Below are positions 3,233 to 28,435 of a DNA stretch of 64,000 bases, piece by piece. Under the pieces are notes generated by a model. That model was given only the letters and a program-made list of their open reading frames with translations, did not search any database and was not told the DNA's origin. Position 1 is the stretch's first letter, and every line of letters begins with the position of its first letter. Source of the DNA: Tannerella forsythia (GTDB lineage Bacteria > Bacteroidota > Bacteroidia > Bacteroidales > Tannerellaceae); assembly GCF_003860135.1 (NCBI RefSeq), contig NZ_RQYN01000006.1, forward strand, positions 1 to 64,000, in the 5' to 3' direction. A program made the translations under genes and the position numbers.

Positions 3233-3324
3233 GAGATTCGACCCAAGGATATGACAAGATGTCTCACTCGGCACCTTTTTCGGCCATTCGTTCCGCCGAT
3301 GCTTCCGATCACTCTCCGGGACGC

Positions 3325-4695
3325 TTACCCGTGAGCGAGCAGCCGTTCAATCAGTTCGTCCCTACCGACGGATTCCTGTTCGCCGGACTGCATATTCTTG
3401 AGGTTGATCGTTCCTTCGGCCATTTCGTTTTCGCCGACGAGCGCCACGAACGGAATCTTTTTCGCATCGGCATAGCCCATTTGCTTCTTCATCTTCGCCG
3501 CTTCGGGATAAAGCTCGGCACGTATGCCGGCCGCACGCACCTGTGCCATAACCGGTAACAGATATGCGGCTTCTTTTTCGCCGAAATGGACGAACATGAC
3601 CTGCGTCGTTTGGAGCGAATCGGCCGGATAGAGGTCGAGCTGGTTGAGCACGTCGTAGATCCGGTCTGCTCCGAACGAGATGCCGACCCCCGACATACCG
3701 TCCATCCCGAATACGCCCGTCAGATTGTCATACCGGCCTCCGCCGGTGATGCTGCCGATCTCTACATCGAGCGCTTTCACCTCGAAGATGGTGCCGGTAT
3801 AATAATTCAGTCCGCGCGCCAGCGTCAGGTCGGTTTCGAGCGCAGCCGTAAGCGGCAGTTGCTCGATATGATCCAGAATGTATTCCGTTTCTTCAATCCC
3901 TTTCAGACCCGTCTCGGATCCGGCGAGCATCTCTTTCAGCACAGCCATCTTCTCGCGGTTATCGCCTTTCATCACGATAATGGGTTGCAACTTCGCAATC
4001 GCTTCTTCCGAGATGCCTTTTCTCCGCAATTCGTCGTTGACGCCGTCGAGGCCGATCTTATCGAGCTTATCCATCGCCACGGTAATGTCCGTGATTTTAT
4101 CCGCCTCGCGAATCATCTCGGCAATACCGGTCAGAATTTTACGGTTATTCATCTTGATAGACACCCGTATGCCGAAACGGCGGAACACTTCGTCCATGAT
4201 CTGGATCAATTCCACCTCGTTCAGCAACGAATCGGACCCGACCACATCGCCATCGCATTGATAGAACTCCCGATAGCGACCTTTCTGCGGCCGGTCGGCA
4301 CGCCATACGGGCTGTATCTGGTAGCGCTTGAACGGGAAGGAAATATCGTTGCGATGCTGCACGACAAAACGGGCGAAGGGCACGGTTAAATCATAACGCA
4401 ATCCTTTCTCACAGGCTTTCGCCGCAAACTTGAGCGCGTTTCGTTCACGCAGTTCATCGTCCGTAAAGCCCGACAAACAATCGCCCGAATTCAGAATTTT
4501 AAACAGCAGGCGGTCGCCTTCTTCGCCATACTTCCCCATCAAGGTGGAAAGATTCTCCATGGCGGGCGTTTCGATCTGCTGAAAGCCGTAGAGGTGATAA
4601 ACGTCGCGAATCGTATTGAAAATATAGTTGCGCTTGGCCATCTCTTCGGGCGAGAAGTCGCGCGTTCCTTTCGGAATAGAAGGTTTCTGTGCCAT
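3325..4695 (-). CDS. hisS: Histidine--tRNA ligase
   Basis: 456 residues, class II aminoacyl-tRNA synthetase that charges tRNA-His with histidine in the cytoplasm. Visible landmarks are the N-terminal [10 protein letters not shown], motif 1/2 region [11 protein letters not shown] and [20 protein letters not shown], and the histidine-specific loop [15 protein letters not shown] followed by GGGRYDNL. The C-terminal ~90 residues form the anticodon-binding domain. It begins 3 bases after the stop of the upstream zinc peptidase on the same strand, so the two are probably cotranscribed. Confidence 0.97.
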
Positions 4696-18660: not shown

Positions 18661-18661
18661 A

Positions 18662-19087
18662 GTTTCCACCACGGAAAGCGAAGTTTCCGCCACGGAAAGC
18701 AAAGTTTCCGCCACGGAAAGCGAAGTTTCCACCACGGAAAGTAAAGTTTCCGCCACGGAAAGCGAAGTTTCCACCACGGAAAGCAAAGTTTCCGCCACGG
18801 AAAGCAAAGTTTCCACCACGGAAAGCAAAGTTTCCGTCACGGAAAGCGAAGTTTCCGCCACGGAAAGTAAAGTTTCCGTCACGGAAAGCGAAGTTTCCGC
18901 CACGGAGAGCGAGGTTTCCGCCACGGAAAGTAAAGTTTCCGCCACGGAAAGCGAGGTTTCCGCCACGGAAAGTAAAGTTTCCGCCACGGAAAGCGAGGTT
19001 TCCGCCACGGAGAGCAAGGTTTCCGTCGCAGAGAGCGAGGTTTCCGCCACGGAAAGCAAGGTTTCCGCCATAGAAAGCGAGGTTTCC
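18662..19087. repeat. 21-bp tandem array, 20 copies, each with a palindrome
   Basis: Twenty units run in perfect 21-bp register from 18662 to 19081, followed by a partial copy. Most contain the palindrome TTTCCG-CCA-CGGAAA; variants lose one pair (TTTCCACCACGGAAA). A 21-bp period keeps several reading frames open on both strands (plus-strand VSATESE-type heptads, minus-strand heptads of Ala-Glu-Thr and of Gly-Gly-Asn). No frame has a convincing ATG start or promoter, so a coding role is unlikely. Confidence 0.9.
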
Positions 19088-19351: not shown

Positions 19352-19382
19352 TTGTCCGATCAGAAAATACTGATTTCCTTTG
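19352..19382 (+). promoter_or_regulatory. Promoter of the riboswitch-controlled butyrate operon
   Basis: TTG at 19352-19354 and TTCCTTTG at 19375-19382 (one mismatch to TAnnTTTG) are separated by 20 bases. Transcription would start near 19389, at the first base of the riboswitch. Confidence 0.5.
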
Positions 19383-19387
19383 CCCCC

Positions 19388-19583
19388 GTCACAGGTGATT
19401 CATCATCCGTTCATGGATGATGGGTTGAAAAGGGAATCCGGTGCGAGTCCGGAACTGTACCCTCAGCTGTAATTTCAGTAGAATGGTTTTGCATTCTTTT
19501 TTGATCACTGTAGCCGCATCAAGGCAACGGGAAGATCGCAAAACCTTGAAAAAGTCAGAAGACCTGCCTGGGCGACTTTTTTT
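19388..19583 (+). promoter_or_regulatory. Cobalamin (B12) riboswitch
   Basis: The conserved elements appear in order: P1 5' strand ACAGGTG (19391), GGGAATCCGGTGCGAGTCC with GGAACTGTACC (19432-19461), AGCTGTAA (19465), CACTG (19506), GGGAAGATC (19529) and GTCAGAAGACCTGCCT (19554-19569). A U8 tract follows at 19577, after GCCC/GGGC arms that extend P1, so ligand binding may itself create a terminator. Another hairpin (AAAAAGTC/GACTTTTT) would compete with P1, so the sign of control is not settled by reading. The next gene on the strand is abfD, 270 bases on. Confidence 0.92.
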
Positions 19584-19852
19584 CATTCTTGGGGAATAGG
19601 GAATGGAAAAGACTGCAACGTATTTAAATAGATGTAATTGATAGATCTATTGCGAGAAGACAGGTTCGTGGTGTGTACACGAGGTCTTCGAAGGGATGTG
19701 TAACGCAACAGACCTTGTTCTGTGTCGACGTAAAGAAGTGGCGCGTCGTTCCGGAATCGGTATGGGGGGCGAAGTATATCCTTTTTGTTCTTCTTCGCAA
19801 TGGAAACATTGGGCAAACCGGACATTTTTTTAACTTATAAAAAGAAATATAC
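19584..19852 (+). promoter_or_regulatory. Structured 5' leader between the B12 riboswitch and abfD
   Basis: The 269 bases hold at least two further hairpins: GAAGAC...TCGTG/CACGA...GTCTTC (19656-19689) and ACAGA/TCTGT around 19708-19726. A 45-codon frame (19696-19833) overlaps the second hairpin; it is Cys/Arg/Trp-rich, matches nothing recognised and is not called. A second control element or mRNA processing site is possible. Confidence 0.4.
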
Positions 19853-21313
19853 ATGAAGACAAGAGAAGAGTACGTGGAAAGCCTCAGGAAGCTGAATCTG
19901 AAGGTTTATTTTATGGGTGAACGGATTCATAATCCGGTCGATCATCCGGTAATCAGGCCGTCGCTCAACTCCATCGCCATGACGTATGAATTGGCCGAAA
20001 TGGAGGAATACAAGGATATTATGACGGCGACATCGAACCTGACCGGCAAAACGGTCAATCGGTTCTGCCATCTGCATCAAAGCCCCGAAGACTTGAAAAA
20101 CAAAGTAAAAATGCAACGCCTGCTCGGACAAAAGACAGCCAGTTGCTTCCAGCGATGCGTCGGAATGGACGCCTTCAATGCCATCTATTCAACGACCTAC
20201 GAGATGGATCAAGCCCTCGGCACGGAATACCACAAACGCTTTGTGGAATACATGAAATATGTACAGGATAACGACCTCGTCGTCGATGGAGCGATGACCG
20301 ACCCGAAAGGCGACCGGAGTCTCTCGCCATCGCAACAGGAAGACCCCGATCTATACGTTCATATCAACGAAGTAAGACCCGACGGCATCGTGGTGACGGG
20401 TGCCAAAGCCCACCAGACGGGAGCCGTAAACTCGCACGAGCATCTGATCATGCCGACGATCGCTATGAAAGAAGCCGACGCCGACTACGCCGTATCGTTT
20501 GCCATCGAAAGCGATGCCGAAGGAATCACGATGATCTACGGCCGCCAGTCGTGCGACACGCGCAAGATGGAAGAAGGCGCCGATATCGACCTCGGCAATC
20601 CGATGTTCGGAGGACACGAAGCGCTCGTCGTATTCGACCATGTATTCGTCCCGAACGAACGGGTATTCATGTGTAAGGAATATCAGTTTGCCGGTATGAT
20701 GGTCGAACGTTTCGCCGGGTATCACCGCCAGTCGTACGGAGGATGCAAGGTCGGTGTGGGCGATGTCCTGATCGGTGCGGCCGCCCTGGCTGCCGATTAT
20801 AACGGCGTACCCAAAGCCTCGCATATCAAAGATAAACTCATTGAGATGATTCACCTGAACGAGACGTTATATGCCTGTGGGATCGCTTGCTCGTCGGAAG
20901 GTGTAAAGATGCCGGCCGGGAATTATATGATCGACCTGCTGCTGGCCAATGTCTGCAAACAGAATGTAACCCGTTTCCCGTACGAAATCACCCGTCTGGC
21001 CGAAGATATTGCCGGAGGACTGATGGTCACCATGCCCTCGGAACGAGACTTGCACTCGAAAGAAACGGGCGATATCGTCCGCAAATATCTGGCCGGCGCA
21101 AAAGGAAAAGACACCACCAACCGGATGCGCATTCTGCGTCTGATCGAGAATTTAACTTTGGGGACAGCCGCCGTCGGCTATCGTACGGAGTCGCTGCACG
21201 GAGCCGGATCGCCGCAAGCGCAACGCATCATGATTGCGCGTCAAGGCGATTTGGAAGCCAAGAAGAAAATGGCGCGTACCATCGCCCGCATCGACGAATC
21301 ATTAGATCAATAA
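19853..21313 (+). CDS. abfD: 4-hydroxybutyryl-CoA dehydratase / vinylacetyl-CoA isomerase
   Basis: 486 residues. It dehydrates 4-hydroxybutyryl-CoA and isomerises the product to crotonyl-CoA by a ketyl-radical mechanism using FAD and a [4Fe-4S] cluster. The four cluster ligands known from the Clostridium aminobutyricum enzyme are present in register: Cys98 and Cys102 (TASCFQRCVG), His291 and Cys298 (YHRQSYGGCK). It is the first gene of the butyrate operon behind the B12 riboswitch and its leader. A NifU-like gene follows after four bases. The enzyme is oxygen-sensitive, so the organism is anaerobic (inference). Confidence 0.96.
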   Translation: MKTREEYVESLRKLNLKVYFMGERIHNPVDHPVIRPSLNSIAMTYELAEMEEYKDIMTATSNLTGKTVNRFCHLHQSPEDLKNKVKMQRLLGQKTASCFQRCVGMDAFNAIYSTTYEMDQALGTEYHKRFVEYMKYVQDNDLVVDGAMTDPKGDRSLSPSQQEDPDLYVHINEVRPDGIVVTGAKAHQTGAVNSHEHLIMPTIAMKEADADYAVSFAIESDAEGITMIYGRQSCDTRKMEEGADIDLGNPMFGGHEALVVFDHVFVPNERVFMCKEYQFAGMMVERFAGYHRQSYGGCKVGVGDVLIGAAALAADYNGVPKASHIKDKLIEMIHLNETLYACGIACSSEGVKMPAGNYMIDLLLANVCKQNVTRFPYEITRLAEDIAGGLMVTMPSERDLHSKETGDIVRKYLAGAKGKDTTNRMRILRLIENLTLGTAAVGYRTESLHGAGSPQAQRIMIARQGDLEAKKKMARTIARIDESLDQ

Positions 21314-21317
21314 GAAC

Positions 21318-21623
21318 GTGAAGGAAACGGAACGATTCATCGAAAAAGAGGCCGTCACTGCCGTGCTGCGCGAGAAGATCAGTCCTCTCCTGCGCAGTCA
21401 CGGAGGTGATTTGACCTTGACGGGGATCTCCCGGTCGGTCGTCAAAGTGTCTTTCACCGGAGCCTGCCAATATTGTCCTTCGGCCTGCGAAACGCTCGAA
21501 CACGTCGTGCAGAAAATCCTTCGCGAAACGCTGGGCGACGAAACGATCCGGGTGGAAACCGACTATGGCGTCAGTGAGGCACTGCTCGATGAAGCCAAAC
21601 GGATTCTTCGGAAAACCCATTAA
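21318..21623 (+). CDS. NifU C-terminal-like iron-sulfur scaffold protein
   Basis: 101 residues, a single NifU C-terminal domain: LLRSHGGDLTLTG, VKVSFTGAC and the cluster-binding CQYC with a further Cys (PSAC) after it. Such proteins assemble or carry Fe-S clusters. Its place four bases after abfD and 13 before the CoA-transferase gene suggests it loads the [4Fe-4S] cluster of AbfD (inference). A small NifU-type gene in a butyrate cluster next to AbfD is also known in P. gingivalis. The start codon is GTG at 21318. Confidence 0.85.
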   Translation: MKETERFIEKEAVTAVLREKISPLLRSHGGDLTLTGISRSVVKVSFTGACQYCPSACETLEHVVQKILRETLGDETIRVETDYGVSEALLDEAKRILRKTH

Positions 21624-21636
21624 TCGAATATAACAA

Positions 21637-22929
21637 ATGGAATGGAAAACAACCTATCGTAACAAAATCGTCTCGGCCGATGAAGCTGTCAGGCGTATCC
21701 GCGATAACGAATGGGTATCGTTGGGACATGCCGCCGGAGTACCGCAGCGATGTGTCGATGCCCTGATACGGAACTATAAATGGTTTAAAAACGTCAGCAT
21801 TTACCACATGCTCGTCTTGGGCGAAGCAAAATATACGGAACCCGGGATGGAAGAAGCTTTCCGCCATGTCGCCAGTTTTATCGGGGCGAATACGCGGGCT
21901 GCGATCAAAGAGAAGCGAGTCGATTTTCTTCCGGCTTTTCTCTCGGAAGTGCCCCGGATGATGCGTGAGCGACTGCTTCCTGTCGATGTCGCCATCGTAC
22001 AGCTCTCACCTCCCGACGAGGACGGGAATTGCAGCTTCGGCATATCGTCCGACTATTCGAAGCCATCGACCGAGCATGCGCGGTTAGTGATCGGCGAAAT
22101 CAACGAGCAGATGCCGTATATCGGAGGAGACAACCTGATTCATCTGTCGAAGCTCGACTATATCGTGGAGGCCGACTATCCGCTTTATACGATTGCGCCT
22201 CCTCGCATCACCGAAGTAGAAGAAGCCATCGGAAGAAACTGTGCCACGCTGATCGAGGACGGAGCAACGCTTCAGTTGGGTATCGGCGCGATTCCGGACG
22301 CCGTGCTTCTTTTCCTGAAAGACAAGAAAGATTTGGGCATTCATTCGGAAATGTTCTCGGACGGGGTGCTGGAGCTGGTCAAAAGCGGCGTAATCAACGG
22401 AAAAGCGAAAACGCTACATCCGAATAAGATGGTGGCAACATTCTTGATGGGAACGCAGGCGCTGTATGACTTTTTAAATCACAACCCGGACGTGGAGATG
22501 TATCCGTCCGATTATGTGAACGATCCTCGAGTGATCGCGCAGAACGACCGGATGATCAGTATTAATAGTTGTATCTCGGTCGATCTTGCCGGACAGGTGG
22601 CATCCGAAAGCATCGGCTTGCAACAAATCAGCGGCACGGGAGGTCAGGTCGACTATGTACGTGGCAGCAATTGGTCGAAAGGAGGAAAAAGCATCATGGC
22701 GATGCCTTCGACGGCGAAAAACGGCACAGCCTCCCGCATCGTAGCCACACTGACCGAGGGCACCACCGTCACGACCTCTCGCAACGACGTGGATTATGTC
22801 GTAACCGAGTACGGGATCGCCCGTCTGAAAGGCTTATCGCTCCGTGAGCGCGCCAAGGCGTTAATCAAGATTGCTCATCCCGATTTCAGGGAAGAATTGG
22901 AAGCATTTTATCAACAACGATTTCATTAA
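21637..22929 (+). CDS. abfT: 4-hydroxybutyrate CoA-transferase
   Basis: 430 residues, two-domain family I-type acetyl-CoA hydrolase/transferase. It moves CoA from acetyl-CoA (or butyryl-CoA) to 4-hydroxybutyrate. Seen: PQRCVDALI near the start, a GIGAIPDAVL loop, DLGIHSEMFSDG (with the catalytic Glu) and GTGGQVDYVRGS, then the C-terminal YGIARLKG. Its use of butyryl-CoA as donor would also release butyrate and close the pathway. It is cotranscribed with its neighbours (13 bases from the NifU-like gene, 31 to the next). Confidence 0.92.
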   Translation: MEWKTTYRNKIVSADEAVRRIRDNEWVSLGHAAGVPQRCVDALIRNYKWFKNVSIYHMLVLGEAKYTEPGMEEAFRHVASFIGANTRAAIKEKRVDFLPAFLSEVPRMMRERLLPVDVAIVQLSPPDEDGNCSFGISSDYSKPSTEHARLVIGEINEQMPYIGGDNLIHLSKLDYIVEADYPLYTIAPPRITEVEEAIGRNCATLIEDGATLQLGIGAIPDAVLLFLKDKKDLGIHSEMFSDGVLELVKSGVINGKAKTLHPNKMVATFLMGTQALYDFLNHNPDVEMYPSDYVNDPRVIAQNDRMISINSCISVDLAGQVASESIGLQQISGTGGQVDYVRGSNWSKGGKSIMAMPSTAKNGTASRIVATLTEGTTVTTSRNDVDYVVTEYGIARLKGLSLRERAKALIKIAHPDFREELEAFYQQRFH

Positions 22930-22960
22930 GTCCGATACGTATCATCCAAATATTACGAAT

Positions 22961-24076
22961 ATGCAACTATTCAAATTAAAAACAACGATTCACCGATTCG
23001 AAACGTTCGGTGATTTTGCGAAGGCATTTGCCCTCGGCGAGAATGATCTTGTTATTACCAACGAGTTTCTGTATGAACCGTACATGAAATCGTGTAATCT
23101 TCCCTGCCGATTTATCATGCAGGAGAAGTACGGCTTGGGAGAACCTTCGGACGAAATGATGAACCGTATGCTGAAAGAAGTAGCGAACCTGCCTTATACG
23201 CGCGTCATTGCCATCGGAGGCGGCACGGTGATCGACATCTCGAAGCTCTTCGTGCTGCAAGGCCTCAACGACATATCGGATGCGTTCGACCGTAAGATTC
23301 CGCTTATCAAAGAGAAACAACTGGTCATCGTTCCTACGACTTGCGGAACGGGCAGCGAAGTAACGAATCTCTCCATTGCCGAAATCAAAAGCCGTCATAC
23401 GAAAATGGGACTGGCCGACGATACGATTCTGGCCGACGACGCTGTTATCCTGCCGGAATTACTGAGAGGACTGCCGTTCAAGTTCTATGCGTGCAGTGCT
23501 ATTGACGCGTTGATACATGCCATCGAATCCTATGTTTCTCCCAAAGCGAACCCGTACACGCGGATTTTCAGCGAGGCCGCCTGGAACATCATCCTCGATG
23601 TGTTCCGGAAGATTGCAGCCAAAGGACAGGACTACCGTTTCGAGAAAATGGGCGAGATGATCATGGCCAGTAACTTCGCGGGGATCGCTTTCGGGAATGC
23701 CGGGGTAGGTGCCGTACATGCGCTCTCGTATCCGCTCGGAGGCACGTATCATGTGCCGCATGGCGAAGCGAATTACCAGTTCTTTACCGAAGTATTCAAA
23801 ACATATCAGGCAAAGAATCCGGAAGGAAGCATCGCGGAACTGAACCGAAAGATAGGGGAACAACTCAACTGTAGCCCGGGAGAAGTATTTCAGGAGTTAG
23901 ACAAGTTGCTGGGTTGTCTGATCGAGAAGCGGCCACTCCGGGAATACGGTATGAAACCCGAAGAAATAAAAGGCTTCGCCGAATCGGTCATGAAAACACA
24001 GCAACGTTTATTAGTCAATAATTACGTGGCACTCACACAAGACGAAATAGCAACCATTTATCAAACGTTATACTAA
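22961..24076 (+). CDS. 4hbD: NAD-dependent 4-hydroxybutyrate dehydrogenase
   Basis: 371 residues, iron-containing alcohol dehydrogenase family. It reduces succinate semialdehyde to 4-hydroxybutyrate. Seen: the nucleotide loop AIGGGTVIDISK, PTTCGTGSEVT, and the metal ligands in DALIHAIESYVS and HALSYPLGGTYHVPHGEAN. An in-frame ATG 30 codons upstream lies inside abfT, so the start at 22961 was taken, giving the length of the P. gingivalis enzyme. It sits between abfT and sucD. Confidence 0.93.
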   Translation: MQLFKLKTTIHRFETFGDFAKAFALGENDLVITNEFLYEPYMKSCNLPCRFIMQEKYGLGEPSDEMMNRMLKEVANLPYTRVIAIGGGTVIDISKLFVLQGLNDISDAFDRKIPLIKEKQLVIVPTTCGTGSEVTNLSIAEIKSRHTKMGLADDTILADDAVILPELLRGLPFKFYACSAIDALIHAIESYVSPKANPYTRIFSEAAWNIILDVFRKIAAKGQDYRFEKMGEMIMASNFAGIAFGNAGVGAVHALSYPLGGTYHVPHGEANYQFFTEVFKTYQAKNPEGSIAELNRKIGEQLNCSPGEVFQELDKLLGCLIEKRPLREYGMKPEEIKGFAESVMKTQQRLLVNNYVALTQDEIATIYQTLY

Positions 24077-24088
24077 ATCATCAACACT

Positions 24089-25447
24089 ATGGAAATTAAA
24101 GAAATGATTGCTCTCGCCCGTGCGGCACAGAAAGAGTATCAGGAAAGATTTAATCAGGACACGGTCGACGAAGTCGTAAAAGCAGCGACCAAAGTCGTGT
24201 ATGACCGCGCCGAATTATTGGCTCGGATGGCAATCGACGAAACGCAAATGGGTGTGTACGAACACAAGGTAGCCAAAAACAGAAACAAGGCGAAAGGCGT
24301 ATGGAGTAACCTGCAAGGCAAAAAATCGATGGGCGTCATGGAAATCGATGACCAAACAGGGCTGATCAAAATCGCCAAACCCGTAGGGGTCGTTGCGGCC
24401 ATCACGCCGATGACGAACCCGATTGTAACGCCGATGGCTAATATCGCTTTCGCGTTGAAGACGAAGAATGCCATCATCGTTGCGCCGCACCCGAAGGCAA
24501 AGGATTGCTCCGCCTACACCGTCAACAAAATAATCGAGACCTTGCGCAATTTCCATGTGCCTCAGGGACTGATCCAGATTATTGAAGAGCCGAGCATCGA
24601 AAAAACACAGGAACTGATGGCTTCCGTCGATGTAGTAGTGGCTACGGGAGGAATGCAGATGGTACATTCGGCCTATTCGTCGGGAAAACCGTCGTTCGGC
24701 GTAGGGGCCGGCAACGTACAGGTGATCTTGGACCGTTACATCGATTATGATGAAGCGGCCGACAAGATTATCACGGGGCGTGCTTTCGATAACGGTATCA
24801 TCTGTTCGGGCGAGCAGAGCTTCATCTATCATGCGAAAGATAAACAAGAAGTTTTTGAATCTTTCGTAAAGCACGGTGCATATTTCGTACCCGAAGAAGA
24901 CCGTGAGAAAGTAGTGAATGCCATCTTTAACGACGGCGCCATTTGTCGTGACATTGTTGGGCAGAGTGTCGAAATGATCAGCCGCAAAGCAGGCATCTCC
25001 GTCCCCGAAGGAACAAGGGTGCTAGTCGTGCAGGCTCACGGAGTCGGCAAGGCGGATATGATATGTAAAGAAAAGATGTGTCCCGTCATGGCCTGCTTCC
25101 CTTACAACTATTTTGAAGAAGCCATTGATATTGCCAAAACAAACCTGAACCTCGAAGGTAGTGGTCATACGGCAGGTATCCATTCGAACGATCAGGCCAA
25201 TATTATCAAAGCCGGAATGGAAATCTCCGTCTCGCGCCTGATTGTCAATGCGCCTTGCTCCATCACAGCCGGCGGGTCGATTCAGAATGGATTGTCCGTG
25301 ACTACCACGCTCGGATGCGGAAGCTGGGGAAATAACTCCATCTCGGAAAACTTTACGTACAAACATTTGCTCAATATCACGCGCGTGGCACAAGTCTCAC
25401 CGCATATTCAGGTACCGACCGACGATGAAATCTGGGCGATGAAATAA
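24089..25447 (+). CDS. sucD: CoA-acylating succinate-semialdehyde dehydrogenase
   Basis: 452 residues, aldehyde dehydrogenase fold of the CoA-dependent AdhE/SucD type. It reduces succinyl-CoA to succinate semialdehyde with NAD(P)H and is the entry step of the pathway here. The catalytic Cys is Cys239 in NGIICSGEQS; the nucleotide-binding region ITPMTNPIVTPMANIAFALK (residues ~105-124) and VGAGNVQ are also seen. It lies 12 bases after 4hbD and 23 before bcd. Confidence 0.94.
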   Translation: MEIKEMIALARAAQKEYQERFNQDTVDEVVKAATKVVYDRAELLARMAIDETQMGVYEHKVAKNRNKAKGVWSNLQGKKSMGVMEIDDQTGLIKIAKPVGVVAAITPMTNPIVTPMANIAFALKTKNAIIVAPHPKAKDCSAYTVNKIIETLRNFHVPQGLIQIIEEPSIEKTQELMASVDVVVATGGMQMVHSAYSSGKPSFGVGAGNVQVILDRYIDYDEAADKIITGRAFDNGIICSGEQSFIYHAKDKQEVFESFVKHGAYFVPEEDREKVVNAIFNDGAICRDIVGQSVEMISRKAGISVPEGTRVLVVQAHGVGKADMICKEKMCPVMACFPYNYFEEAIDIAKTNLNLEGSGHTAGIHSNDQANIIKAGMEISVSRLIVNAPCSITAGGSIQNGLSVTTTLGCGSWGNNSISENFTYKHLLNITRVAQVSPHIQVPTDDEIWAMK

Positions 25448-25470
25448 AATCAACAGATCAAGATAAATGT

Positions 25471-26619
25471 ATGGATTTTAATCAGACACGTGAGGAGGCC
25501 TTGTTCCTCCAGATGATTCGCGCCTTTGCCGAGAAAGAGGTGAAACCGCTGGCTGCCGAAATAGATGAGCAGGAGCGTTTCCCGATAGAAACCGTGCGTA
25601 AGATGGGGAAGATCGGGCTGATGGGCATTCCTTTTCCGGTGGAGTACGGCGGAGCGGGAGCCACGAATCAGATGTATTCCATGGCGGTCGAAGAACTGTC
25701 GAAAGTATGTGCTACTACGGGAGTTGTACTATCGGCGCATACGTCGCTGTGCACCGCCCCAATCTACGAGCACGGAACCGAAGAGCAGAAGAAAAAGTAT
25801 CTGCCCAAACTCTGCTCGGGCGAGTGGATCGGCGCCTTCGGGCTAACCGAGCCGAATGCCGGAACGGATGCAGCCGCGCAGCAAACCTTCGCCGAGGAGG
25901 AAGACGATCACTACATCCTTAACGGGAATAAAATATTTATCACCAATGCCGAGTATGCCCATGTATATGTCATCTTCGCCATGACCGATAAAAGTCTTGG
26001 CACGAAAGGTATCACGGCTTTCATCGTAGAAAAGGGTATGCCCGGGTTCAGCATTGGAAAGAAGGAATTGAAAATGGGGATTCGGGGGTCGGCCACATGC
26101 GAACTGATCTTTGAGCATTGCATCGTTCCGAAGGAGAATATGCTCGGTACCGTAGGCAACGGTTTTAAGATTGCGATGAAGACACTCGACGGAGGACGTA
26201 TTGGGATTGCTTCGCAAGCACTGGGCATTGCGCAGGGCGCCATGGACGAAACGGTAAAATACGTGACCGAAAGAAAGCAGTTCGGTAAGTCCATCGGTCA
26301 GTTTCAGAACACGCAGTTCCAGCTCGCCGATTTAGCGACGCGCATCGAAGCGGCTCGCCTGCTGGTACGAAAGGCCTCGTGGAAAAAAGATCAAAAGATG
26401 AATTATACAATGGACTCGGCCATGGCCAAGCTGTATTGTGCCGAGGTAGCGATGGATATGACCATCAAGGCCGTCCAGTATCATGGCGGATATGGTTATA
26501 CCCGCGAATATCCGGTAGAACGGATGATGCGTGACGCGAAGATTACCGAGATTTACGAAGGCACATCCGAAGTACAGCGACTTGTGATTGCCTCCAACCT
26601 GTTAAAAAAGAAAAAATAG
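25471..26619 (+). CDS. bcd: Butyryl-CoA dehydrogenase
   Basis: 382 residues, FAD-dependent acyl-CoA dehydrogenase that in fermenters runs as crotonyl-CoA reductase. Seen: AFGLTEPNAGTDA (FAD/substrate loop), the ITNAEYAHVYVIFA region, GRIGIASQALGIAQGA, YHGGYGYTREYPVERMMRD and the catalytic Glu of IYEGTSEVQR near residue 368. etfB starts four bases later, etfA after that. The Bcd-EtfAB set can bifurcate electrons, reducing ferredoxin together with crotonyl-CoA; whether this one does is inference. Confidence 0.94.
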   Translation: MDFNQTREEALFLQMIRAFAEKEVKPLAAEIDEQERFPIETVRKMGKIGLMGIPFPVEYGGAGATNQMYSMAVEELSKVCATTGVVLSAHTSLCTAPIYEHGTEEQKKKYLPKLCSGEWIGAFGLTEPNAGTDAAAQQTFAEEEDDHYILNGNKIFITNAEYAHVYVIFAMTDKSLGTKGITAFIVEKGMPGFSIGKKELKMGIRGSATCELIFEHCIVPKENMLGTVGNGFKIAMKTLDGGRIGIASQALGIAQGAMDETVKYVTERKQFGKSIGQFQNTQFQLADLATRIEAARLLVRKASWKKDQKMNYTMDSAMAKLYCAEVAMDMTIKAVQYHGGYGYTREYPVERMMRDAKITEIYEGTSEVQRLVIASNLLKKKK

Positions 26620-26623
26620 TACT

Positions 26624-27406
26624 ATGAATATCGTTGTTTGTATCAAACAAGTTCCGGATACGACGGAAATCAAGCTCGACCCTGTGAAAGGAACGCTTAT
26701 CCGCGACGGGGTGCCGAGCATCATGAACCCGGACGACAAGTGCGGACTGGAACAGGCCTTGCTCCTGAAAGACAAGTTCGGGGCACATGTTACGGTCCTT
26801 ACGATGGGACCACCGCAGGCCGAAGCGATTCTTCGCGAGGCATACGCCATGGGCGCAGACCGTGCCATCCTGCTTAGCGACCGAAAATTCGGCGGTGCCG
26901 ATACGTGGGCGACATCCTACACGTTGGCTGCCGCTCTGCGAAACATCCCTTTCGATGTCATCTTCTCCGGAAGGCAGGCGATTGACGGCGACACGGCTCA
27001 GGTAGGCCCCCAGATTGCCGAGCATCTCGGATTGCCGCAGGTTACCTATGTAGAACACGTGGAATATGACGGAAACGAGACGTTCACCGTCACCAAAAGC
27101 ACGGAAGAAGGGTACGAGATACTCGAAGTCGGACAGCCTTGCCTGTTCACCGTTATTTCGGCAGCCGAGCCGCCGCGCTATATGAATGTACGACTCATCA
27201 TGACGGCCTACGAGCGGGAAATTGAAGTGTGGGGCTTCGATCACATCCGTGTGGACGCAGAACAGATCGGCCTCAAAGGCTCCCCGACGAGGGTGGCCAA
27301 ATCGTTCACCAAGGGAGCGAAGGCGATGGGAGCGCTGCATGAAGTATCTCCCGAAGAAGGCGCACAGATTATTTTTGAGAAGTTGCAGGAAAAATTCATC
27401 ATCTAA
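26624..27406 (+). CDS. etfB: Electron transfer flavoprotein, beta subunit
   Basis: 260 residues. It starts MNIVVCIKQVPDTTEIKLD and shows NPDDKCGLEQAL, the ADRAILLSDRKFGGADTWAT stretch (residues ~84-103) and GRQAIDGDTAQVGP, which are standard EtfB marks. With EtfA it passes electrons from NADH to Bcd. It is four bases behind bcd and 21 before etfA, the same order as in clostridial butyrate operons. Confidence 0.95.
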   Translation: MNIVVCIKQVPDTTEIKLDPVKGTLIRDGVPSIMNPDDKCGLEQALLLKDKFGAHVTVLTMGPPQAEAILREAYAMGADRAILLSDRKFGGADTWATSYTLAAALRNIPFDVIFSGRQAIDGDTAQVGPQIAEHLGLPQVTYVEHVEYDGNETFTVTKSTEEGYEILEVGQPCLFTVISAAEPPRYMNVRLIMTAYEREIEVWGFDHIRVDAEQIGLKGSPTRVAKSFTKGAKAMGALHEVSPEEGAQIIFEKLQEKFII

Positions 27407-27427
27407 CCCCGCTATTGTGATTACATC

Positions 27428-28435
27428 ATGAACAAGGAAGAATATAAAGGAATCTTCGTCTTTGCCGAACAACGGGAAGGCGAAATCAAGAACGTTGCTT
27501 TTGAACTGATCGGAAAAGCACGCGAGTTGGCCGAGGCTGTGGGCGAAGACGTCACGGCGCTGTTGCTCGGCGATCAAGTATCCCCCTTGGCACAGAGCCT
27601 GATCGAGGCGGGTGCCGACAGGGTGCTGATCATCGACTCGCCCGAACTGAAAGATTATCTGACGGAGCCTTACACGCAAGCCGTTACCCACCTGATCCGG
27701 ACCTACAAGCCGGAAGTCCTGCTTATCGGAGCATCGACGATCGGGCGCGATTTGGGGCCGCGTGTCTCGGCACGAGTAAGGACCGGGCTTACGGCCGACT
27801 GTACGGCGCTGGCCGTTTCGGACGACCGTGACCTGCTGATGACACGCCCTGCGTTCGGCGGAAATCTGATGGCGACGATTGTCTGCAAGGAGCATCGTCC
27901 GCAGATATCGACCGTTCGTCCCGGAGTGATGCGTCGCCGGCCGGCCGACAAGAGCCGCACAGGAGAGATCGTAAACGTAGACATGCAGTTTGATACCTCG
28001 GCGTTCAAGGTGCGTTTGGTCAGAAAAGAAAAGAAACCAAAGAGTCTGATAGATATTACCGAAGCGAAAATCTTGGTATCCGGCGGGCGGGGCGTAGGCA
28101 GCAAGGATGGTTTTTCATTGCTCGAAGGGCTGGCTTCGTGCATTCGCGCGGAGGTTTCCTCGTCACGCGCGATGGTCGATGCCGGCTTGATCGATCATGA
28201 AAGACAGGTCGGACAGACGGGCAAAACCGTTCGCCCCGACGTGTATTTCGCCTGCGGCATATCGGGTGCCATCCAGCATCTGGCAGGTATGGAAGAATCG
28301 GACTACATCATTGCCATCAACAAAGACAAGTTCGCGCCGATCTTCCACGTGGCCGACCTCGGTATCGTGGCCGACCTGACAAAGGTCGTGCCGTTACTTA
28401 CCCAGAAGCTGCAAAAGGCTCAGATGAAAACGTAA
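27428..28435 (+). CDS. etfA: Electron transfer flavoprotein, alpha subunit
   Basis: 335 residues. The C-terminal FAD-binding domain is clear: [45 protein letters not shown] and IIAINKD. It is the last gene of the butyrate operon; a strong hairpin follows 29 bases after the stop and the next gene is convergent. Confidence 0.95.

Follow-up and report, generated by a model that had tools for sequence, protein, structure and literature searches.

A predicted cobalamin riboswitch heads a B12-independent succinate-to-butyrate operon in Tannerella forsythia and related Bacteroidales

Why should a fermentation pathway whose enzymes make no use of vitamin B12 be preceded by a sensor of that vitamin? 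The question is raised by a 64,000-nucleotide (nt) stretch of the Tannerella forsythia genome (NCBI RefSeq assembly GCF_003860135.1, contig NZ_RQYN01000006.1, positions 1 to 64,000; hereafter the window), in which a cobalamin riboswitch lies ahead of an eight-gene operon that begins with abfD and is predicted to lead from succinyl-coenzyme A (succinyl-CoA) to butyryl-CoA. The competing route from succinate to propionate requires the B12-dependent methylmalonyl-CoA mutase, and B12 riboswitches often repress B12-independent alternatives such as metE. In this context, we consider it quite probable that a working cobalamin riboswitch shuts off the succinate-to-butyrate operon when B12 is plentiful.

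The Rfam covariance model for cobalamin riboswitches (RF00174), a check suggested by an earlier note on this DNA, matched the forward strand at 19376-19585 (cmscan, 85 bits, E 1.6e-19) over its full span (1-189 of 189), against a gathering score of 31.5 bits; the note had placed the same element at 19388-19583, with ends slightly short. Besides score and span, membership of the family is indicated by a B12 box, AGTCAGAAGACCTGCC (19553-19568, +), read from the sequence and near-invariant across the aligned loci, and by a kissing loop that joins the C-rich L5 to a loop outside the aptamer core. Binding of a corrinoid (adenosylcobalamin or other) by the leader RNA is a prediction from sequence. 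The riboswitch also has a promoter of its own, as previously claimed: a pattern match of Bacteroidetes type, TTG-N20-TTCCTTTG, with its -33 and -7 elements at 19352-19382 (+), is one mismatch from the Bacteroidetes consensus, in a scan that allowed TTG/-7 spacings of 18-22 and at most one mismatch. Furthermore, a -7 box adjoins the start of almost all abfD riboswitches examined, being found as TAYCTTTG at the homologous abfD loci of Porphyromonas macacae, Porphyromonas gulae, Sanguibacteroides and COT-184, and as TANNTTTG close to the riboswitch start at 19 of another 21 abfD loci. Directly upstream of the promoter in the window, a tandem array of about 20 copies of a 21-base-pair unit (18661-19087) can be read without stops in several frames of either strand; elsewhere in the genome, contig 156 encodes a protein that has similar repeats.

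Beyond the aptamer, the parts of a switch were also identified. The C-rich aptamer loop L5 (TACCCT, 19458-19463, +) pairs with the loop GGGGAATA (19591-19598) of the P13 hairpin, a structure of 14 pairs at 19577-19612 (+). In abfD riboswitches a hairpin with a loop complementary to L5 is located about 10-25 nt downstream of the B12 box, and L5-L13 complementarity was detected in 12/12 of those tested, shuffled downstream sequences giving a mean of 4.95 and a maximum of 9; an early, looser hairpin test was passed by 77% of shuffles, and stricter tests were used instead. The loops carry compensatory variants (CCCU/AGGG, CCCU/GGGG, UCCC/GGGA, CUCU/AGAG, CGCG/CGCG, and CCCCC/GGGGG) and, since the pairs co-vary, selection appears to act on switching and not on aptamer shape alone, which points to a maintained switching function of the abfD riboswitches. 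A pseudoknot of the L5-L13 type has been described as the usual control element of adenosylcobalamin riboswitches (Barrick and Breaker, PMC2258182), and the same platform recurs at the remaining riboswitches of the genome, or at the equivalent ones in T. forsythia, including those at B12 uptake genes and nrdDG. At one further locus (L126), two divergent cobalamin riboswitches stand back to back (3233-3436 and 3796-3981), one directed toward abfD and one toward the opposite gene, the second with a kissing loop of the CGCG/CGCG type.

The operon that follows comprises eight colinear genes on the forward strand (19853-28435), separated by intergenic gaps of 4-31 nt. The first, abfD (19853-21313), encodes a 4-hydroxybutyryl-CoA dehydratase of the HpaB family (486 amino acids; PF11794, PF03241), 79-99% identical to operon homologues and 99% identical to AbfD of T. 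forsythia ATCC 43037. A NifU-domain protein (21318-21623; PF01106), probably an accessory helper for the Fe-S cluster of AbfD, is followed by a cat2-like 4-hydroxybutyrate CoA-transferase of the acetyl-CoA hydrolase/transferase type (21637-22929; PF02550, PF13336), an iron-containing alcohol dehydrogenase taken as 4-hydroxybutyrate dehydrogenase (22961-24076; PF00465, PF25137), and a sucD-like, CoA-dependent succinate-semialdehyde dehydrogenase (24089-25447; PF00171), whose best NCBIfam relatives, below cut-off, are acylating aldehyde dehydrogenases. The last three genes encode a bcd-like butyryl-CoA dehydrogenase with acyl-CoA dehydrogenase domains (25471-26619) and the beta and alpha subunits of an electron transfer flavoprotein, etfB (26624-27406; PF01012) and etfA (27428-28435; PF01012, PF00766). 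Clustering of abfD with the genes for the CoA-transferase and the 4-hydroxybutyrate and succinate-semialdehyde dehydrogenases places the operon in the succinate (4-hydroxybutyrate) route to butyryl-CoA, and gene families and order together are those of this route, with individual activities assigned by family and synteny. The eight-gene set of the earlier note thus stands as a colinear unit, with seven enzyme or electron-transfer genes and the NifU-like gene as an accessory. Moreover, no B12-binding domain family was detected in any of the eight proteins, in agreement with the claim that these enzymes do not use B12; the genome's own B12-binding domains are encoded on other contigs. Tannerella has been listed with the succinate route (pathway P2) as its sole butyrate route, which has also been described for Porphyromonas (PMC9403272). 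Every riboswitch-bearing operon that was checked contained the NifU-like gene, and several riboswitch-less ones (L024-L028, L147) lacked it.

The arrangement is not restricted to the window. A total of 25 genomes, which represent at least four families of Bacteroidales and include most Porphyromonas, carry the riboswitch upstream of abfD, in the same recurring order with abfD as the next gene. A one-genome-per-species scan recovered it in T. forsythia, another Tannerella, P. macacae, P. gulae, Sanguibacteroides and COT-184. Of 393 Bacteroidales genomes sampled evenly, 8 carried a close AbfD (at least 80% identity), and the riboswitch preceded it in 6 of the 7 that had the upstream region present, representing four families. 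Closer sampling located AbfD in 20 of 26 genomes of the Porphyromonas-type genus, with the riboswitch at 15 of 19 evaluable loci, and the Sanguibacteroides family had it at all AbfD loci (4/4). At riboswitch-less loci the core abfD operon order is kept. A search for riboswitch remnants with E up to 1 found none at six such abfD loci, nor at the four Porphyromonas loci that lack the riboswitch. AbfD trees, with deep branches partly unresolved, fit an early gain of the riboswitch followed by several losses. In T. forsythia ATCC 43037 (contig136; locus L012, 88-297 and 4526-4735), a promoter-riboswitch segment of about 350 bp is duplicated 4.4 kb upstream with 98% identity, two lipoprotein-like open reading frames and a transposase-like one lying between the copies; this duplication is absent from the window, and the upstream copy would place a lipoprotein gene under B12 control.

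If B12 selects between two routes, the B12-dependent one should exist in the same cell, and the earlier note had proposed to look for methylmalonyl-CoA mutase. Both subunits, mutA and mutB, are present, adjacent to each other on contig 154 of the window genome, and both occur in 25/25 genomes with an abfD riboswitch. Among 19 Bacteroidales that have abfD and lack the riboswitch, the mutase was found in 15 and missing in 4. Two of these 4 are Porphyromonas, and all other Porphyromonas tested had the mutase. Co-occurrence of riboswitch and mutase gave Fisher p = 0.029 overall and 0.035 within Porphyromonas, values that ignore the kinship of the genomes, and because the genomes are related this association is suggestive only. 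One of the two mutase-free Porphyromonas (L173, G467), which is also riboswitch-free, has abfD broken over two frames.

Taken together, these data suggest how the locus could operate. With B12 bound, L5 would pair with L13 and the level of operon mRNA would fall, and B12-loaded methylmalonyl-CoA mutase would route succinyl-CoA to propionate. In the absence of the vitamin, the mutase would be idle and the operon on, so that succinyl-CoA would be reduced to butyryl-CoA, preserving an outlet for electrons and carbon. On this basis, B12 supply probably decides between butyrate and propionate output in Tannerella and in many of its relatives from the mouth and gut. The fuller claim, that the corrinoids available in the gum pocket or gut set this balance through the riboswitch in Tannerella, Porphyromonas and related Bacteroidales, with a microbe-exchanged vitamin acting as a fermentation switch in at least four families, is one toward which we lean with modest confidence. 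The switch proposed in the earlier note withstood three of the four refuting conditions named there (no riboswitch score, a separate abfD promoter in the leader, sought among those of Bacteroidetes type, and no mutase in the genome), and it has gained from the conservation across families, the kissing-loop covariation and a parallel at nrdDG, whereas the sign of control and the shift in acids are extrapolated.

Several observations weigh against this interpretation. In the window genome mutAB has no riboswitch, so switching would touch the butyrate side only, and the fifteen Bacteroidales that combine abfD and mutase without a riboswitch indicate that B12 control is not obligatory. In X. ruminicola, none of four riboswitches lies near a propionate gene (0/4; PMC11575231). 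At the level of annotation, NCBIfam equivalog cut-offs were not reached, enzyme names resting on domain families and gene order, and the L5-L13 pairing of Tannerella includes one G-U. Part of this evidence favors another account, in which the riboswitch does repress the operon, and does so to spare costly Fe-S and flavin enzymes or to balance redox while other B12-dependent steps run, the product ratio barely moving as the mutase is cofactor-limited anyway. Such a role agrees with the riboswitch-less genomes that hold abfD and mutase, and with X. ruminicola, which makes propionate only with cobalamin and has no riboswitch at its propionate genes, so that cofactor supply alone can set propionate (PMC11575231). 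We nevertheless find it unlikely, given that the butyrate and propionate routes compete for succinyl-CoA, that the riboswitch always stands at the head of the abfD operon, and that no riboswitch-bearing abfD genome is without the mutase.

The sign of control is a separate matter, on which the remaining B12 regulon of the genome is informative. Six cobalamin riboswitches were identified, and besides abfD their targets are TonB-dependent receptors, a BtuB-like receptor operon, a BtuF/BtuC-type ABC transporter and nrdDG; one of those ahead of a TonB-dependent receptor also directly follows a CbiK-like chelatase gene. The nrdDG genes encode a B12-independent ribonucleotide reductase and nrdJ a B12-dependent one. 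Since nrdJ is encoded elsewhere in this same genome, the riboswitch-preceded nrdDG operon already fits, by gene content, the rule that B12 represses a B12-free alternative. In Bacteroides thetaiotaomicron, 37 nM cyanocobalamin cuts the mRNA of a B12 riboswitch about 70-fold (PMC6143338), and because the abfD riboswitch has the same architecture as this repressing one, and as those of other Bacteroidales, repression is its likely sign. Activation of the operon by B12 is very improbable. It could draw on a sign that is not readable from sequence, on a long leader in which no terminator was found downstream of the platform, and on Listeria, cited for B12-dependent activation via a cobalamin riboswitch acting through antisense RNA (PMC11575231). 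Against it, B12 uptake genes and nrdDG are headed by the same combination of promoter, aptamer and P13 platform, the B12 riboswitches of Bacteroides are repressing ones (PMC6143338), and a B12-free pathway would have little physiological reason to be induced by the vitamin. As a further observation, long leaders (about 450-510 nt) link cobalamin riboswitches of P. gulae and P. macacae to a multi-pass membrane protein that looks AspT/YidE-like by eye and to a radical-SAM-family-like protein (by eye), targets that B12 uptake does not account for.

Between the aptamer and the abfD start codon lies a leader of 267 nt (19586-19852, +), close to the 270 bases noted earlier and within the range of homologous leaders (about 210-745 nt). 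No other Bacteroidetes-type promoter (spacing 18-22, at most one mismatch) was found in 19583-19853, so the link between riboswitch and abfD was not refuted on the ground of an abfD promoter of that type. Likewise, a search of the coding strand around the switch gave no intrinsic terminator, and the leader did not fold better than shuffles (z -1.1). An anti-aptamer hairpin complementary to the B12 box (AGGUCUUC near 19683) was rejected, as 11% of window shuffles were as good, and in other genomes the candidate was not clearly above shuffled leaders either. Covering of the start codon is unlikely because the P13 platform ends about 240 nt before it and homologous leaders are long; an effect on transcription or on the stability of the RNA is the more probable mode of control. 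The least probable reading, that the riboswitch is a neighbor or relic whose real target was lost, or that abfD has its own promoter, could appeal to the 267-nt gap and to promoter scans that do not span all promoter types, but it is opposed by the same order with abfD as next gene in at least four families, by an L5-L13 covariation that shows the switch to be maintained, and by a leader with no Bacteroidetes promoter and a longest stop-free stretch of only about 60-70 codons.

Returning to a repressing riboswitch, its consequences would reach the host. Butyrate from these bacteria harms gum tissue, yet nourishes the gut lining, and for this reason what sets butyrate output matters. If the proposal is true, an imported vitamin governs which acid these bacteria release, and B12 riboswitches would extend from single isozymes to the choice of fermentation end product. 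The co-location is not entirely new, contrary to the earlier note: one sentence of a 2020 study mentions a Tannerella cobalamin riboswitch upstream of 4-hydroxybutyryl-CoA dehydratase, with transcripts raised in periodontitis (PMC7160235). That study labels it as adenosylcobalamin biosynthesis, and the operon, its conservation, the mechanism and a switch are not proposed there. No paper tying the abfD riboswitch to butyrate control was found in a coverage that did not extend to the 2003 B12-element comparisons and the 2014 Bacteroides B12-transporter paper, which may mention an abfD target; a 2013 riboswitch regulon survey leaves butyrate unmentioned in its main text. More speculatively, the raised transcript in periodontitis might be read as a local B12 shortage.

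With respect to known systems, the element resembles the RF00174 riboswitches of Bacteroidales B12 uptake (btuB/btuG loci, B. thetaiotaomicron) in its aptamer, promoter position, P13 hairpin and L5-L13 loop, features that the uptake loci of this genome and its relatives also show; it differs in its leader of about 270 nt and in its target, a fermentation operon instead of B12 uptake or synthesis. The operon itself matches that of Porphyromonas gingivalis in the order of abfD, the NifU-like gene and the genes for CoA-transferase, 4-hydroxybutyrate dehydrogenase and SucD, as tested in P. gulae, and departs from it in having bcd-etfBA inside the operon and in the addition of B12 control. Like the metE and nrdDG cases, it is a B12-free alternative placed under a riboswitch, with enzymes that need no B12 and a B12-dependent counterpart in the same genome, repression by B12 being likely by analogy with B. 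thetaiotaomicron. Unlike them, it is no isozyme of that counterpart: the abfD pathway is a multi-gene one with other reactions and another end product, sharing only succinyl-CoA. In brief, B12 riboswitches ahead of B12-free alternatives are already known; what is new is the target, a fermentation pathway whose end product differs.

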